DNA of 64,000 bases from Candidatus Cloacimonetes bacterium HGW-Cloacimonetes-3 (lineage in GTDB: Bacteria > Cloacimonadota > Cloacimonadia > Cloacimonadales > Cloacimonadaceae): assembly GCA_002840645.1 (NCBI GenBank), contig PHBO01000006.1, positions 1-64,000 on the forward strand. The letters run 5' to 3'. Numbering within the stretch: the stretch's first letter is position 1; every line of letters begins with the position of its first letter. The position numbers and the translations under genes are program-made. Shown piece by piece: positions 1 to 63,934 of this stretch. Under the pieces are notes generated by a model. That model saw only the letters and a program-made list of their open reading frames with translations. It ran no database searches and was not told where the DNA came from.

Positions 1-65
1 ACAATTCCCTAACAATTCCCTAACAATTCCCTAACGGCGTTAGGGAATTGTTAGGGAATCGTTAT
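1..65. repeat. Family A palindromic intergenic repeat, 11-bp tandem units (AATTCCCTAAC) inverted around GGC
   Basis: acaattccctaacaattccctaacaattccctaac-ggc-gttagggaattgttagggaatcgttat; arms complementary for >20 nt; may extend left of the window. Confidence 0.9.
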
Positions 66-258
66 AGCGATATTAAAGAAAACAGCAAGGTAAAAGATAG
101 AGCTTACAAGGGTGTTTTACAGTATTTGGGAAACACCGGCAAGGTAATGGCAACATGCCACCAAGCCGTTTTGGATGTTCGCTTTCTAATACTACGCGGT
201 TGCACTATCAGGACTACGGCTTATATTGTAAGTAATAACTTGAAGAAAGGATACAAAG

Positions 259-1616: not shown

Positions 1617-4600
1617 ATGTACATAGACCATCGATATGAAGTTCTGGAGAGCCTTGGATCCGGTTCATGGGCAAATGTGTTTAAAGTGCGGGATGTACGC
1701 ACGAATAACATCTATACTCTGAAATTGTTCCAATATCTGGCATCAGACGAGCTATATTCGCATTTCAGTGCTGAGGAAATGCATCACATAACTAAGATTG
1801 AACACCCAAACTTAAATCATGTGATTGATTTTGGACATGTTGGTGATCATATATACTACATCAGCGATTATTTTGAGGGTAAGACCCTTGCTAATTTCCG
1901 CTTCAGTAAGTCGAAAGTAAACCAAATTTTTGATATTGCTGTGCAAACCTGTTACGCGTTGCATGCCCTGCACATCCAAAACATTTTACATAAAGACCTT
2001 AAGCTTGAAAACGTACTTTATCGTATTGAGGCAAAATCATTAATCCTCAAACTGATTGATTTTGGTTTTACTAAGATAGACACAACCAAGGATACTCAAA
2101 TGGTTTCCGGCACATTGCCGTATCTGGCACCGGAGATATTCTTAGGAAAACCTGCAAGTAAAGCCAGCGATTTCTATGCATTGGGTGTGATCCTATACCG
2201 ATTGACAACAGGTAGCTTTCCCTTTAGCGTGGATCAGATAAATACTCTTATCACCGGCGGGCATCAGTACTTTATCCCCAATTTTCCCAGTGAATTGAAC
2301 AAGGATATCCCGCCGACACTGGAAAAGTTCATCTTGCGCTTGTTAGAGAGAAACCCGGATAACCGTTTTAGCAGCAGCGAAGAAATTGTATCATACGTAA
2401 ACCGTATCCACCATCAGGAATATCCTTTTTCGGCAGAATGGTCGATGATCAACACATTACGCTTTAATAGCTACATTGTACGCGAGAAATACTCTCATCA
2501 ACTGCTGGATTTCATACCTGCACTGGAAAGTAGCAATGGGAAGATCGTGTCGGTCATTGGGGGAGATGGTCTTGGTAAGGATAATATTCTGTCTCTGTTT
2601 CGCTATCACTTATTAGGCGGCCAGTATTTTATTTTTGACTACGAGTGTTCCAGAACCGAGCACGAAGCTTTTTTTGCTCTGATTAAAGAATTCGTGAGGT
2701 CTCTGGGTAAAGTGGAAATAGAGCAGTACGCAAGCCTGAAGCAAATATCCGAAAAACTACGAAGATACTTGTTCGATTCTGAGCAGGAAGCCAAAGCCGT
2801 CAGCCAAACTGTAACAGATTTGAAAATTGATTTTGAATCTGTAAAGAGCTTGCTGATTGATATCTCAGCTCGAAAACCTATAATCTTCATCATACGTAAT
2901 TTTCAGCATGTGCATCGGCACACGATTGACTTTATTAACTTCATATCACCTTTCATCATAAACCAAAGGATTATAGTAACTCTTTCCTGTAATGACTATA
3001 ACAAAATCAACCAAATTAATCATACTGTTATGGTGAACATTCCATCCCTTAGTATGGATGAGAGCAAAGCTTATACCAACAGACTACTTCCTGTTTCTGC
3101 TCCAAGTGAGATTGTAGAGGGTCTATATCACAGATCAGCCGGCAATCCCCAATTTATAAAAGAGATACTTATTGATCTGGCGCAGAAAAAGAAGATTTAC
3201 TCTGATGATAAAGTCCACTTCCCTGAAGATTTAACAAGCTATACGATGCCTTCGAGATTGATACATTCTGTATATTCTCGCTTAAGCCATATTACTACCA
3301 CAAATTATACTCATTTACAGAAGCTCAGTATCGTGCAAACCCCATTAACCAGAGAGTTGATAAGCTACATCACCAAGGCAAGCGATCAGGAACTATACAA
3401 TCTCTTAAATGACAGCACTTATAACGAGATCATCATTAAACAAGGCAAGTGCTATTTCTTTGCTTTTGCAGAAGCAAAACAGCGCTTGTACGATGAATGT
3501 GCAGTGAAGCTACATGTTCTGGTATCAAAGCGGGTTTTAAAATTTTACAGCAATAAAGACATGCTGGATATAAATACCTGCGAGGGCATTATAAAGAATG
3601 CTCTGCTTGCGGGAGACTTGCTTTCCGTACGGCAATATTATTTGAAACTGTATCATTTGTCTAACAGCGAACATGAACAAGAAAGAGCTTATGATGCGAT
3701 TTTAAATGTGTTACAGTTGGACTTGAATTCCGACCTTGGAATCCCTTTAAGTGATATAATCAGTGATATATACAAATTCCACGACAAAATGGATACTACA
3801 GGCTTTTTCGATAAAGCTCTTTATATGTTTGAAGATAAACCGGGGGCAGAAAAGAAAGATTCTAAACCTGAGATTGCTCCCTTAGCCCAGGGGCAGTTTC
3901 TTGCCTTGCCGGACATATTCGAAAAGTACTTCTTGTTAGGCGCAATAAGGCTTATGGCAGAAGATATGGATATGGCACTTGAATATCTTACCCAAGCAGA
4001 AAAATATGTATCTACAGGTAAACAACAACTGCTGATATGGCTTTACTTGGTTCAAATCTATGGGAAAAAAGATATAAGCAAGATGAAAAAGTACCTCGAT
4101 CTGGCTCAAAAACAACAAAAGTCTCTGGATTTGAAAATTGCTTTTACAGACAGGCTTGCTGTTTACTATTCATTGATAAAAGATCCAGACCGGGCGATAA
4201 AAACTATTGAGGATTATCTTGTCTCCATACCACCTGAGCATGACCCCAAAGTTATGATCCGTCTCGCTGCAATGCACAACGATTTAGGAGTGTTTTACAG
4301 CGAGCAAAAGAACATTGAAGAAGCCGACGAACACCTGTTTGCAGCATTAAGTATCTGGAAGCGGTACAATGTTAAGCGATATTTGGGCTTGATATACAAC
4401 AATATCTCTGATTTGTTTCTCAAGCAAGGAATAACGCTGCTTTCAGAGCACTATTCAGAAATGGGCTACCACCATGCAGACGAGCTGAATCAAACTATGA
4501 CAAAAGCATTAGCTCTGTTGAACCAGGGTGAAGCTAAGATAAAAATGGGTGATTTTCTGAGCGCAGAAGCCAAATTGCTTGAATGCAAGGATTTGGTGTT

Positions 4601-7139
4601 GTCCAAAAATAGCAGCACATACTTGTTATCGGTGAAAAGAAACCTCGCCTTAGCTAAAAGCAAGATCATTGGTTTTGGGCACTACTTTCGCTTTATCCAA
4701 GATACTGAACCGGAATTGATTGCCGGTAACATAATGGAGATAACCCCTCTTGTAAAAACATATTTCTATTACTTGAACGAAATGTCCAACACCAAAAAGC
4801 TGAAGAAGCTGATTCATAAGAATGTTCAGATAAACTACAAGCATATTCATGAAGAAGAGTTTTACCATAATGTACTTAGCCTGATTGCGCTATCAGAGAA
4901 GGATTTCGAAACCGCTCTCAGCGAGTTGAAGCTTGCTATGCGCCATGCAGGTGAGGTTAATAATAATTATGCTATTGCAGTGTTTTATGTGCTCCAAATC
5001 TCATGTTATTATGGCTTGAATGACGTAACCCGAGCCAGAGAATTGATAGAGTTAGCACTGCCTATTATTAAAGAAAACCAGTACCGTTACTGGCTATGCA
5101 AGCTGGATATTTTAAGGGTGAAGCTGGACTTGTTGATACCGGATATTCCATTGCGGGAATTGCTGCGGGTAGTTGAGGGCTTCATAATGCAGTGGCGGGA
5201 ATATCAATATTATCAGCTAAACATAGAGCTGTACCAGATCAAAATACAGATACTTATTGAGCTGAAACAGGATAACTTAGCATCAGAATGCTATCAAAAC
5301 TATCGGAAATATCTGGAAGAGATAACCTTGGATATTAGCCCGGATGATAAGCAGAACTATCTTCAAGTTAACTTGTACAGTATAACCGCCATTAGAAAGT
5401 TTGATCTTGTGCCCATTGTATCCCGAGTAAAAGACCTGCGCCATAAGTGGAACGAGATGCTTTATAACATAGCTAATGTTTATAATGTGGAACGGATAAA
5501 GTTCTTGGTAGAGAAAGGGCTAAGCCAAGTTCTCTCACCTTGGAAGTTTAAACTAATGCAGTACTCTGAAAAAATTCAGAACTACACTTGCTTTCAAAGC
5601 TATAATACAGATATGGATAGTTTCATTGATGCAGGTTATGTTCCATTCATAGATAAGGCATTTAAATCCGATAACTTAGTGATGTTTGAAGCAAATGGAA
5701 ATCATCTGATGATAGTTCCATTTCAAAGCGGATCGAAGCGGATAGGGTTCCTGCTACTATCGGATAATGGTGAAATGGAATACACGAAGCAAGAAATGTC
5801 CATTATGCGGAATGTAAAGCAACATCTAACTGCTCTAATTATCAGAATTCAGGATTATGGGCAGATTACCAAGCGTATCGAGAAAATGAACCAGCTTATG
5901 TTGATAACGCATGAGCTTATGCGGATAGTGGACATTAACGATCTGGAGCATGAAATAGTATCTGCTTTTATTGATTTCACTAATAGCACCAGAGGATTTC
6001 TGATAAAACGCGATAGCGATGGTAATAACATCTACAAGGTTCAGTTAAACAACGCCAAACAAATCTTGCCAACCGTGTCGGGGCTTAGTAAAACTGCTTT
6101 AAGCCTAAGCCAGAATACAAGAGAGATGATCTCAACCTTCAATGCGGTGGAAGATAGCCGTTTTAAGAGTGCAATCAGCGTACAGGATTATATCTTACAC
6201 ACTATCTTCTGTGCACCGATTATGGTGGACAATACAATATTTGGCTATATTTATCTGGATAACATCGATGATAACGGTAGAGATATGTACCTAAACCCAG
6301 AGATAATAAGTCTATTGATGGAACAAACCACTATTGCTTTGAAGAATGCTATGCTATATGAAAACCTGTTAACCAAAAATAGTGAGTTAAATGCATTCGA
6401 AATGCTTAAGGATGAGTTCATGGCTATTGTTTCTCACGAACTGAATACGCCTCTCACAACATTGCAGGGGCATATCTCGCGCTTGAAACGCAATTTGTAT
6501 GCAGACGAAGAAGAAAGAAAGGAAATCCTGAATAAAGTAGAGGGTTCGGTAAAGAAACTGATTCTGACTACTAACGATATAACCACAATGAACACCTATA
6601 ATCTGAAGAAAACTCTTACCCTCGCACCACTATCGATAGAAGAGATATTGGAGTTAATCCAGCAGGAAGTGGAGATATTGTCCAGAAAGAGAAAGATGTT
6701 TATCCGGCTGGAGATTGAAAAAGACCTACCAAACCTGAAGGCTAATTGGGAGGCAATGCATCTGATGATTTACAACTTAGTGCTGAATGCAATTCGCTTC
6801 ACCAATGATTTTGGTACAGTTACTATTGGTGCCCGGCGTTCTGCTTTTCAACAAGAAAAAATAGATGGTAAGGAAAGCATTGTTCTGTATGTGCAGGATA
6901 ATGGGATTGGGATTCCTGAGTTTCAATTGAAAAATGTGTTTCGGAAATTCTATGAGCTTAATGAGATTTATGCCCATAAATCCGGTACAATTGAATATCG
7001 TAGTAGTGGTCTTGGCTTAGGTCTATCCACCTCAAAAAGAATCGCAGAATTACACGGTGGTAATATCTGGATTAAGAGTAAGGAAAATGAAGGTACTACA
7101 GTGTTTATTACTATTCCTCTAAAAAGTGCTAATAGGTAG
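1617..7139 (+). CDS. Giant multidomain signalling protein: Ser/Thr protein kinase - AAA-like ATPase - TPR-like - GAF - histidine kinase
   Basis: N-term LGSGSWANVFKV, HKDLKLEN, DFG, APE; middle P-loop-like GGDGLGKDN; C-term H-box SHELNTPL, N-box NLVLNAIRFTN, G1 DNGIGIP, GLGLGLSTSK. Confidence 0.92.
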   Translation: MYIDHRYEVLESLGSGSWANVFKVRDVRTNNIYTLKLFQYLASDELYSHFSAEEMHHITKIEHPNLNHVIDFGHVGDHIYYISDYFEGKTLANFRFSKSKVNQIFDIAVQTCYALHALHIQNILHKDLKLENVLYRIEAKSLILKLIDFGFTKIDTTKDTQMVSGTLPYLAPEIFLGKPASKASDFYALGVILYRLTTGSFPFSVDQINTLITGGHQYFIPNFPSELNKDIPPTLEKFILRLLERNPDNRFSSSEEIVSYVNRIHHQEYPFSAEWSMINTLRFNSYIVREKYSHQLLDFIPALESSNGKIVSVIGGDGLGKDNILSLFRYHLLGGQYFIFDYECSRTEHEAFFALIKEFVRSLGKVEIEQYASLKQISEKLRRYLFDSEQEAKAVSQTVTDLKIDFESVKSLLIDISARKPIIFIIRNFQHVHRHTIDFINFISPFIINQRIIVTLSCNDYNKINQINHTVMVNIPSLSMDESKAYTNRLLPVSAPSEIVEGLYHRSAGNPQFIKEILIDLAQKKKIYSDDKVHFPEDLTSYTMPSRLIHSVYSRLSHITTTNYTHLQKLSIVQTPLTRELISYITKASDQELYNLLNDSTYNEIIIKQGKCYFFAFAEAKQRLYDECAVKLHVLVSKRVLKFYSNKDMLDINTCEGIIKNALLAGDLLSVRQYYLKLYHLSNSEHEQERAYDAILNVLQLDLNSDLGIPLSDIISDIYKFHDKMDTTGFFDKALYMFEDKPGAEKKDSKPEIAPLAQGQFLALPDIFEKYFLLGAIRLMAEDMDMALEYLTQAEKYVSTGKQQLLIWLYLVQIYGKKDISKMKKYLDLAQKQQKSLDLKIAFTDRLAVYYSLIKDPDRAIKTIEDYLVSIPPEHDPKVMIRLAAMHNDLGVFYSEQKNIEEADEHLFAALSIWKRYNVKRYLGLIYNNISDLFLKQGITLLSEHYSEMGYHHADELNQTMTKALALLNQGEAKIKMGDFLSAEAKLLECKDLVLSKNSSTYLLSVKRNLALAKSKIIGFGHYFRFIQDTEPELIAGNIMEITPLVKTYFYYLNEMSNTKKLKKLIHKNVQINYKHIHEEEFYHNVLSLIALSEKDFETALSELKLAMRHAGEVNNNYAIAVFYVLQISCYYGLNDVTRARELIELALPIIKENQYRYWLCKLDILRVKLDLLIPDIPLRELLRVVEGFIMQWREYQYYQLNIELYQIKIQILIELKQDNLASECYQNYRKYLEEITLDISPDDKQNYLQVNLYSITAIRKFDLVPIVSRVKDLRHKWNEMLYNIANVYNVERIKFLVEKGLSQVLSPWKFKLMQYSEKIQNYTCFQSYNTDMDSFIDAGYVPFIDKAFKSDNLVMFEANGNHLMIVPFQSGSKRIGFLLLSDNGEMEYTKQEMSIMRNVKQHLTALIIRIQDYGQITKRIEKMNQLMLITHELMRIVDINDLEHEIVSAFIDFTNSTRGFLIKRDSDGNNIYKVQLNNAKQILPTVSGLSKTALSLSQNTREMISTFNAVEDSRFKSAISVQDYILHTIFCAPIMVDNTIFGYIYLDNIDDNGRDMYLNPEIISLLMEQTTIALKNAMLYENLLTKNSELNAFEMLKDEFMAIVSHELNTPLTTLQGHISRLKRNLYADEEERKEILNKVEGSVKKLILTTNDITTMNTYNLKKTLTLAPLSIEEILELIQQEVEILSRKRKMFIRLEIEKDLPNLKANWEAMHLMIYNLVLNAIRFTNDFGTVTIGARRSAFQQEKIDGKESIVLYVQDNGIGIPEFQLKNVFRKFYELNEIYAHKSGTIEYRSSGLGLGLSTSKRIAELHGGNIWIKSKENEGTTVFITIPLKSANR

Positions 7140-15622: not shown

Positions 15623-17095
15623 ATGCGGGAAACAGGTATATTGCTACATATCACATCACTTCCCACAGAGTTTGGGATAGGTGATTTCGGACCTGCTGCT
15701 TACCGTTTTTCGGAATATTTAAAGCGTGAAGGGCATAAGTATTGGCAAATACTTCCTGTAAATCACTGTGGTTATGGAAATTCGCCATACAACCCCATCT
15801 CTGCTTTTGCTTTATCCCCTTATCTAATCAGCCCGGAGTTGTTGTATCAACAGGGTTTGATATCTGCGCGAATTCTGGAGGAAGCAAAGCTTCCTCCCGG
15901 TGATACAGTGTTTTATGAGAGTGTTTATAAAGCCAAGGACAAGCTTCTTGCTATTGCTGGAGAAAACTGGCTTTTAAGCAATGATATCTCCCGTTTTGTA
16001 GCCTCTAACAAAGATACCTTGAAGCCTTATCTCGCTTTCCAGATTCTTAGCCGTATCTATGGTGACAATGCCTGGCATGCCTGGAATCCCGAGCATCGCA
16101 GATACACCGATAAGCTATTTGATGAGCTGTGGATTAGTCATGCTTCTGCTATGAAATTGGTAGCGGCATATCAATGCATATTAATGGAGCAAATTGCCCT
16201 GTTCAGAGCTGTTTTAAACCGGGATGGAATTACCTTGGTGGGAGATGTACCCCTGTATTTGTCTTACGAAAGCGCAGATGTGTGGGCTCATCCGGAGTTG
16301 TTCGATTTAGATGAAAACGGCGTTCGGCTACATTATGCTGGTGTTCCTCCGGATGCTTTTGCTTCCGAAGGACAGCTTTGGGGGAATCCTATTTACCGCT
16401 GGGATACCATGAAAGACAGCGTTTACCAGCTTTTTCTTGCCCGCATATCACACGCACTAAACTATATTGACATACTGCGTTTGGATCACTTTATCGGTTA
16501 TGTAAATTTCTGGCAGGTGGAAAGCGATTTTAATCCGCAAGGTTTACCCATTTCACCCACATCTGCCAAAAATGGGCGGTGGGTCTCTACTTCTGCAAAA
16601 GATTTCTTTGCATTACTTTGCAGCCATTTTGGCAAAGGTCGTTTTATTGCGGAAGATCTTGGAATCCTGAATGACGAGGTGTGCAATATCCGCGATAGTT
16701 TTGGCTTTCCGGGGATGATTGTTCTCCAATTCTGCTTCGAAGAAAGTGTACCTAAGGTGCGGGAATATCCTGCAAGCAGATGGCTTTACACCGGTACGCA
16801 TGACAATCCCACCCTGCGAGGTTGGTTTGAAGCTCTTTTATCAGATTCTCCCAGCCTTGCCCATTTAATGCAGTATTGCAGTGAAAACAAAGTGCGCGAT
16901 TGCCGCAAGATTCCCAATGCTGAGAATATCCATCAGATAATGAGAAGCATTGCCCTGGCTTCCGCTTGTGAAAAGGTTATCATGCCTTACCAAGATGTTC
17001 TTGGCTTGGATGATTCTGCCCGCATGAATGTCCCCGGTACGGCATTGGGAAATTGGCAGTGGCGTATCAGTATGGATACCAATGAGTTATTTTAA
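15623..17095 (+). CDS. malQ: 4-alpha-glucanotransferase (amylomaltase)
   Basis: RETGILLHITSLPTEFGIGDFG, DVPLYLSYESADVWAHPELF, LRLDHFIGY, AEDLGIL, GTHDNPTLRGW. Confidence 0.96.
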   Translation: MRETGILLHITSLPTEFGIGDFGPAAYRFSEYLKREGHKYWQILPVNHCGYGNSPYNPISAFALSPYLISPELLYQQGLISARILEEAKLPPGDTVFYESVYKAKDKLLAIAGENWLLSNDISRFVASNKDTLKPYLAFQILSRIYGDNAWHAWNPEHRRYTDKLFDELWISHASAMKLVAAYQCILMEQIALFRAVLNRDGITLVGDVPLYLSYESADVWAHPELFDLDENGVRLHYAGVPPDAFASEGQLWGNPIYRWDTMKDSVYQLFLARISHALNYIDILRLDHFIGYVNFWQVESDFNPQGLPISPTSAKNGRWVSTSAKDFFALLCSHFGKGRFIAEDLGILNDEVCNIRDSFGFPGMIVLQFCFEESVPKVREYPASRWLYTGTHDNPTLRGWFEALLSDSPSLAHLMQYCSENKVRDCRKIPNAENIHQIMRSIALASACEKVIMPYQDVLGLDDSARMNVPGTALGNWQWRISMDTNELF

Positions 17096-17190
17096 TCTCC
17101 TTGCAAGCATTGCCCTATCATTGCCCACCCATTCCCCTCTTTGTGGGGTATAGGTGGGGTGTGATAGGGGGCAAGAAGCAAGGGAGATTA
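17093..17190. repeat. Family B palindromic intergenic repeat, copy B1 (imperfect)
   Basis: aatctccttgcaagcattgccctatcattgcccaccc...ggggtgtgatagggggcaagaagcaagggagatt; imperfect inverted arms downstream of malQ. Confidence 0.75.
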
Positions 17191-17311
17191 CCTTTTTCTG
17201 CTTGACGAATTATTGCTATAATTCAAAATGCGGAAATGGCTTGTTGATGTAGCAAAGCCATAGTTAAATGATTAAACGATATATAAATAGAAACAACAAG
17301 GAGATTAAAGA

Positions 17312-28264: not shown

Positions 28265-28298
28265 ATCTTAGCGGCTTGCTTGCATTAATTACGCTTGT

Positions 28299-28352
28299 AT
28301 TACGGATGAAATACGCATCCCATCCGTAATTCATGCGTAATTCATCCGTAAT
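28299..28352. repeat. Family C palindromic intergenic repeat, copy C1
   Basis: attacggatgaaatacgcat - 14 nt - atgcgtaattcatccgtaat; 19/20 arm complementarity; 11-bp periodicity (gtaattcatgc/gtaattcatcc). Confidence 0.88.
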
Positions 28353-28475
28353 TCCGGCAGGGAAGGTTAGCCGAAGTCCTCTTCGACGGTAGCTTACACC
28401 CCCTTCGCAGAATGATTTTACAATTCATTTGACAGCTTGGCTAAGCTAAAAAAACTGCCCTAAATGAGGTGAAGT

Positions 28476-45310: not shown

Positions 45311-45430
45311 GAGTGGATGGAGTTCCTCCCAAAGACCTTGTGTCACTTCAGCACCCGGTACAACATTAAAACTCGCATGCTATTCTTGAACAACTCTCTG
45401 CTTCTCACTACTTACCATTCCCTTACTGCA

Positions 45431-45500
45431 ATTACATTAGCAATACGCATGAATTACGGATCGCATCCATATTTCATGCGCAATTCATAAGTAATTCAAG
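45431..45500. repeat. Family C palindromic intergenic repeat, copy C2 (imperfect)
   Basis: aatacgcatgaattacggatcgcatccatatttcatgcgcaattcataagtaattc; same units as C1. Confidence 0.75.
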
Positions 45501-45715
45501 CAAGGAATATAATATTGCTTAAGGTTGATTCTGCTTAAGTGTATTCTACTAACACCAGCAGCGCAAATGAATGCCATACGCTTTGAATTGATAAACACTT
45601 GACAAGAATAGTGCCTAAAAAGGAAGTGTGTCTCTTAAACATAGTCACCACAATCCATCATGAACAGAGCAAAGGATTGAGGTGTTATAGTAAAATTAGA
45701 TAGGAGATTACACGA

Positions 45716-49590: not shown

Positions 49591-49730
49591 ATTTATTACC
49601 TCTTGTGAGTTTATTTACCTTAAACACATTGGGACAGCAGTAATGAATCTGATTCTAATTTACAGGGTTTCGTCGGGCTATATTTTTGTCAATAACAAAT
49701 TCGAATCAGCTTCTTACTTTCAGGTATTGC

Positions 49731-49785
49731 CCTATCATTGCCCACTCATTGTCCACAAACAGGGCAATAGGTGGGCAATGATAGG
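49731..49785. repeat. Family B palindromic intergenic repeat, copy B2
   Basis: cctatcattgcccactcattgtcc - acaaaca - gggcaataggtgggcaatgatagg. Confidence 0.85.
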
Positions 49786-49910
49786 AATAAGGCACTAAGA
49801 AAGTAGCAGGAAACCTGATAGTGTATTATACAGCCGAGAACTCAAAAATTGCATTGACATCATCGTGCCTTAAGAAAAAGTTGGCAAGGAACCTGACCTT
49901 GGAGAAAAAA

Positions 49911-57171: not shown

Positions 57172-57325
57172 TGGGTTAGAATATCATCCACACCTAAAGC
57201 TACTTCCTTTCAGCTCTATGTAAAATTTAGTTATCAGCTTGTTACTTCCATGTTACCCGCTTTGCTGTAATACTACCATTTCACCTTTGCAGCAATATCA
57301 TCATCCTTGCTGTTTTCATTTATAA

Positions 57326-57390
57326 TGCCATAATAATTCCCTAACGATTCCCTAATGGCGTTAGGGAATCGTTAGGGAATTATTATGGCA
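57326..57390. repeat. Family A palindromic intergenic repeat, second copy; perfect 30-bp arms with 5-nt loop
   Basis: tgccataataattccctaacgattccctaa-tggcg-ttagggaatcgttagggaattattatggca. Confidence 0.95.
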
Positions 57391-57564
57391 GCAGTAGGGA
57401 AACCAGCAAGGGTAATGTGGGATCCTAAATAGCCGGCAGGATGCACAATTTGAAAAGATAATAAGTACCACTTACGCGCATAATTTGATATAAAACCGAA
57501 AGAAAGAAGCGATTTAACTTGACAAGATATCGAGAATAATTAGATTGCCATATAGAGGTGATGT

Positions 57565-63635: not shown

Positions 63636-63729
63636 ATAACCTCCATCAACACTTTTCTATTTCAAAATGGCATTTTCTGAATAGCCTCTTTTTTGTCGAG
63701 TTTTTATTTCATTCCTGCTTGCCAATCCA

Positions 63730-63780
63730 TATCATTGCCCACTCATTGCCCTCTTTGTGGGCAATGAGTGGGCAATGATA
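63730..63780. repeat. Family B palindromic intergenic repeat, copy B3; perfect 22-bp arms with 7-nt loop
   Basis: tatcattgcccactcattgccc-tctttgt-gggcaatgagtgggcaatgata. Confidence 0.93.
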
Positions 63781-63934
63781 GGGCTATACCTGCAAGCTTG
63801 CTTTTCCTTTAAACAGCTTTAAATTGTTTAATGACCCTGTTTCTTAAAGCTTCGGCTTTAATTTTGCAATACTAAAGCAATAATCAAGATGATAGGGTCG
63901 AAGTAAAATTAATACTTCCCGATAGGAGGAATAA

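Follow-up and report, generated by a model that had tools for sequence, protein, structure and literature searches.

The analyzed window, a 64,000-nt stretch that forms the start of contig 3 (PHBO01000006.1) of the 2.68-Mb draft genome of an uncultured member of the phylum Cloacimonadota (Candidatus Cloacimonetes bacterium HGW-Cloacimonetes-3), contains seven hairpin-forming elements with arms built in 11-nt steps, in addition to a gene for a very large multidomain protein (Table 1). All seven hairpins of the preliminary description were present, at or within a few bases of the places it gave and with the 11-nt units it listed, and a profile search of the contig retrieved these seven and no others in the window. 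When folded as single DNA strands, the seven had z-scores of −4.0 to −13.7, with no shuffled sequence folding as well. The preliminary description required correction on several points. The three families it called unrelated (A, B, and C) are not all unrelated, since B/C hybrids exist and most families share their ends; its statement that the units contain ATT does not hold for the additional families D, E, and H; and each element extends to about 85–110 bp, beyond the limits it gave. Since window position 1 is the start of the contig, the first copy is cut short.

Table 1. Positions of the period-11 hairpin elements and of one additional feature in the 64,000-nt window.
Feature	Position	Unit(s)	Ends	Remarks
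Family A element	1..92	AATTCCCTAAC	right end ..CAGCAAGG	Left end cut by the start of the contig; profile match 5-92
Large protein	1617..7139			1840 aa; joins a Ser/Thr protein kinase domain, TPR repeats, GAF and a histidine kinase
Family B element	17094..17191	ATTGCCCTATC / ATTGCCCACCC	CTCCTTGC..GCAAGGGAG	
Family C element	28270..28374	ATTACGGATGA / ATTACGCATGA		
Family C element	45417..45510		right end AAGCAAGGAA	Arms partly mismatched
Family B element	49705..49812	ATTGCCCTATC / ATTGCCCACTC		
Family A element	57302..57414		CCTTGCTG..CAGCAAGG	Five-unit arms
Family B element	63704..63801	ATTGCCCACTC		

In order to establish how widespread this architecture is, we scanned 852 kb of this genome (contigs 3, 15, and 20 and parts of 28 and 30), 800 kb of a congener (G001), and smaller samples of other relatives. 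Of the 98 palindromes that passed a fixed threshold in this genome, 75 had 11 as their best arm period, while no other period was represented by more than 6; dinucleotide shuffles gave one palindrome in total, and sequence from other phyla gave 91 palindromes, 4 of which had period 11. Of 74 clear period-11 elements, 69 (about 93%) were intergenic, although intergenic DNA made up only 9–11% of the sequence, and the density was roughly 100 elements per Mb. Within the arms, bases matched at lag 11 (mean 0.46) and lag 22 (0.38) against about 0.26 at most other lags, in every family. Nearly all period-11 tandem repeats were located in or near these palindromes (35 of 40 in this genome and 34 of 43 in G001). 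DnaA-box-like sequences (TTATCCACA) were also found in tandem at 11-nt spacing, at 106387-106421 of contig 30 and at 1604-1628 in G001, and are possible replication origins. Several contigs (the window contig and contigs 20, 21, 29, and 32) begin at or within 90 bases of a family A element, so the assembly breaks there and copy numbers are lower bounds. That the elements form one class is near certain, and the central proposal of the preliminary description, one class of intergenic element that changes its sequence while keeping an 11-nt period, is supported.

Besides families A, B, and C, we identified families D (GTAACCCTCCC), E (CCTGCCACGAC), F (TTAATCAAGCG), and H (AAACCTCACCT), as well as single copies of others, giving at least seven unit families in this genome. 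Hybrids between B and C and between B and H showed that some families intergrade. Two family D copies (contig 15, 83041-83208 and 100943-101110) were 87% identical over 168 bp, so D may extend beyond the common ends. Relatives carried the same design with other units, for example ATTGCTTACCC, ATATGATTCCC, and GTAACACTTCC in G001, and CAATACGGTAG and GTATACTTTCT in a further relative, G047.

Two properties unite the class, namely a terminal motif and a quantized arm length. Most families end in CTTCCTTGCTT...AAGCAAGGAAG, although family E has different, longer ends. One family C copy reads exactly as eight 11-mers around a 3-nt loop: CTTCCTTGCTG TAATTACAGTA GAAATACGGAT GAAATACGCAT CTC ATCCGTATTTC ATGCGTAATGC ATAAGTAATTC AAGCAAGGAAG. 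The end motif started 44 nt (33 arms), 55 nt (34 arms), or 66 nt (3 arms) from the center in 70 of 88 arms, with both 44 and 55 nt occurring within family D; copies of one family share ancestry, so these are not 70 independent events, but several families agree. A search of 50 genomes of the family for CCTTGCTT and AAGCAAGG spaced 56–86 nt apart gave 42 copies in G032, 32 in G049, 3 in G006, and 2 in G003, with unrelated inner units. These four genomes span three genera. Single matches in G011, G014, and G042 look like chance, the reversed-pattern control had 1 match, and none of the 75 genomes outside the family matched. The exact pattern is strict, since this genome itself scores zero because its ends vary by a base or two, and absence elsewhere is thus not proof. 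A non-inverted tandem array of 21 copies of the 11-mer CAAGGATTGAG, which resembles the end motif, was observed at 2060-2290 of a locus on contig 5, just upstream of an IS200-type tnpA and next to a family E element.

Several comparisons indicated that the elements are likely mobile, although this was inferred from comparisons between species rather than from strain-level empty sites. Family A has about 30 loci in this genome. Among conserved neighboring gene pairs of this genome and G001 that are separated by a long gap, four contained an element only here, one only in G001, and none in both. The element at 17 kb of the window is absent from the corresponding gene pair in G001, G002, G003, G004, G007, and G008, while G002 keeps the sequence TTTCTGCTTGACGAAT that follows the element here. 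An apparent case of the same orthologous place being occupied by changing units, at the patatin locus, was taken as coincidence, because the systematic comparison showed no positional conservation. Two G049 copies were identical at 84 of 86 positions in unrelated flanks, and the congeners of G032 have no exact-end copies, from which we infer recent, lineage-specific spread, with separate expansions in G032 and G049. An alternative is that the hairpins are immobile arrays of binding sites for a host DNA-binding or nucleoid protein (one protomer per 11 bp), kept by selection at each site and created or lost locally. The exact spacing and quantized arms agree with this, as does the higher conservation of the inner two units compared to the outer ones among copies of family A (0.94–0.95 vs. 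0.71–0.78). However, the lack of positional conservation between congeners, and near-identical 85–86 bp copies with sharp ends in unrelated flanks and in bursts in single genomes, which need copying rather than local origin, make this unlikely.

The dispersed, lineage-specific, and discrete character of the elements fits the earlier suggestion that they are MITE-like. It is nevertheless unlikely that they are MITEs of an ordinary DDE insertion sequence whose autonomous copy is missing from the assembly, despite their conserved terminal inverted repeats, discrete size, and bursts. No target duplication was detected (flanking direct repeats of 3.35 nt vs. 3.38 nt between different elements), although the element ends are slightly fuzzy and a short duplication could have been missed. 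No solitary ends flanking a gene were found, for family A genome-wide and for families A, B, C, D, and F in the sampled 32% of the genome, nor were multi-copy transposase genes seen in that sample, and the full-length internal period and freely varying interior are not expected of a deletion derivative. Insertion into pre-existing palindromes was suggested only by anecdotal cases of element-specific inverted flanks, without an excess, and searches of viral contigs for exact unit patterns gave only matches without palindromes, so spread by phages was not supported.

The preliminary description also proposed REP elements, but membership in the strict sense of a RAYT (Y1 tyrosine transposase) partner fails. 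RAYT-type genes exist in this genome (NF047646 over cut-off), and the elements are short, palindromic, intergenic, and numerous like REPs. However, the RAYT genes inspected in this genome (contigs 12, 15, 26, and 28) and in G047 (loci L309, L310, L312, and L313) carry their own, different flanking repeat pairs, for example GGAGTTCAA..TTGAAGTCC in this genome and AGTCCGTTAGGACG in G047, which are apparently separate REP systems in this phylum. G032, with 42 copies, is 99% complete and has no Y1 transposase. The GTAG and CGTC tags that define the REP superfamilies (PMC3733652) were not enriched at the foot of the palindromes (8 and 3 of 90 elements; about 0.23 expected by chance). A small doubt remains, since four Y1 genes in G047 (L308, L309, L310, and L312) lie within about 1.5 kb of a period-11 palindrome of the GTATACTTTCT family, which also occurs away from Y1 genes.

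Elements occurred in tandem, convergent, and divergent gaps (37, 16, and 16) roughly in proportion to the gaps available (119, 35, and 54), so that, contrary to what is expected of REPs and of intrinsic terminators, divergent gaps were not avoided; genes were called by a simple longest-ORF rule and these figures are approximate. A role as transcription terminators or RNA hairpins (mRNA stability elements) is thus very unlikely, although strong RNA folds were predicted on either strand and element centers lay nearer to gene 3′ ends (36% within 100 nt) than to 5′ ends (12%), as expected if promoter insertions are lost. On the transcribed strand, G-U-type and A-C-type mismatches were equally frequent (51 and 48), and the only Rfam match in the window was a tRNA. 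The period-11 hairpins of this genome showed a constant and unexplained polarity across families, the 5′ arm being C-rich and the 3′ arm G-rich (C:G 924:392 and 405:929, respectively).

The two arms of an element appeared to copy each other. Among the 32 G049 copies (with the last six bases implied by the search pattern), the four columns that vary as isolated sites in the outer stem had changed on both sides in every copy, including two changes private to single copies. The only one-sided stem changes were three nearby columns in one copy, whereas positions next to the loop varied freely on one side. Shuffling arms among copies never reached the observed match. Family A showed the same at columns 11, 22, and 23, but family B arms did not show within-element matching, so this is not universal. 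Slow compensation under selection would leave half-changed copies, and copying of one arm from the other is therefore the better, and a fairly likely, reading. By our count, the loop was inverted relative to the arms in at least 6 of the 42 G032 copies; arm homogenization and spacer inversion are described outcomes of template switching between inverted repeats (PMC8604942). In the G032 copies, one 11-nt slot differed wholly between the two arms (GCCGTGGTGAT against TACTCGGAGCC) while neighboring units still paired, as if one unit had been exchanged as a block.

Taken together, the hairpins are, with reasonable though not strong confidence, best explained as one class of miniature, non-coding, palindromic mobile element of one Cloacimonadota family, in which each arm is a stack of 4 or 5 (rarely 6) units of 11 bp, usually ending in CTTCCTTGCTT, around a loop that is often only a few nt. 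We infer, with no mobilizing gene identified, that a factor acting in trans recognizes the common end and moves or copies the element, that the second arm is renewed from the first through a hairpin template switch during spreading or replication, and that families spread and replace one another, giving genome-specific units. The 11-bp step may reflect one turn of helix, read by a protein that sits in register along the arm, so that a unit may change as long as its spacing does not. This part is plausible but unproven, as is the earlier suggestion of tandem protein sites one helical turn apart; A/T phasing within units was not above that of shuffled units, so the helix argument rests on the spacing and quantized arm length alone. 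No published description of such elements was found in a literature search of partial coverage. It is possible, though tentative, that they are a kind of mobile DNA of their own, independent of RAYT and IS transposases, with a fixed end motif and freely exchangeable 11-bp modules, moved by an unidentified helix-registered protein and renewed by arm copying at each round of spread, whose unit families compete within one bacterial clade. Known short palindromic repeats are defined by their sequence, whereas here sequence is free while spacing is fixed, across at least seven families in one genome and several genera, which makes the question of what a palindromic repeat needs in order to spread directly testable. 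The near-identical bursts in G032 and G049 suggest recent activity, so the factor should still be present in those genomes, and the arm-matched changes would constitute a copy-by-copy record of hairpin template copying in bacteria.

Among known systems, REP and REPIN elements are likewise short, palindromic, and intergenic, with tens to hundreds of copies and several families per genome (PMC3733652; PMC3116915), but they are 20–60 bp long with GTAG or CGTC tags and RAYT linkage, whereas the elements described here are 85–110 bp long, have 11-nt modular arms, lack enrichment of these tags, are not the flanking repeats of the RAYT genes inspected, and occur equally in divergent gaps. MITEs are also small, non-coding, and dispersed, with conserved terminal inverted repeats and lineage-specific bursts, but here neither target duplication nor, within the searches described above, a parent element was found, and the whole element is an 11-nt modular palindrome with an interior that varies without limit between genomes. 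Foldback elements and Galileo of Drosophila, the inverted arms of which are likely composed of short tandem repeats around a middle, resemble the hairpins in architecture, which is not a test of kinship; they are far larger, eukaryotic, and transposase-related, without 11-bp quantization. Quasipalindrome template switching predicts arms made identical and spacers inverted (PMC8604942; PMC7202029), both of which were seen here, but it is a mutational process rather than an element and does not explain the 11-nt units, the common ends, or the dispersal.
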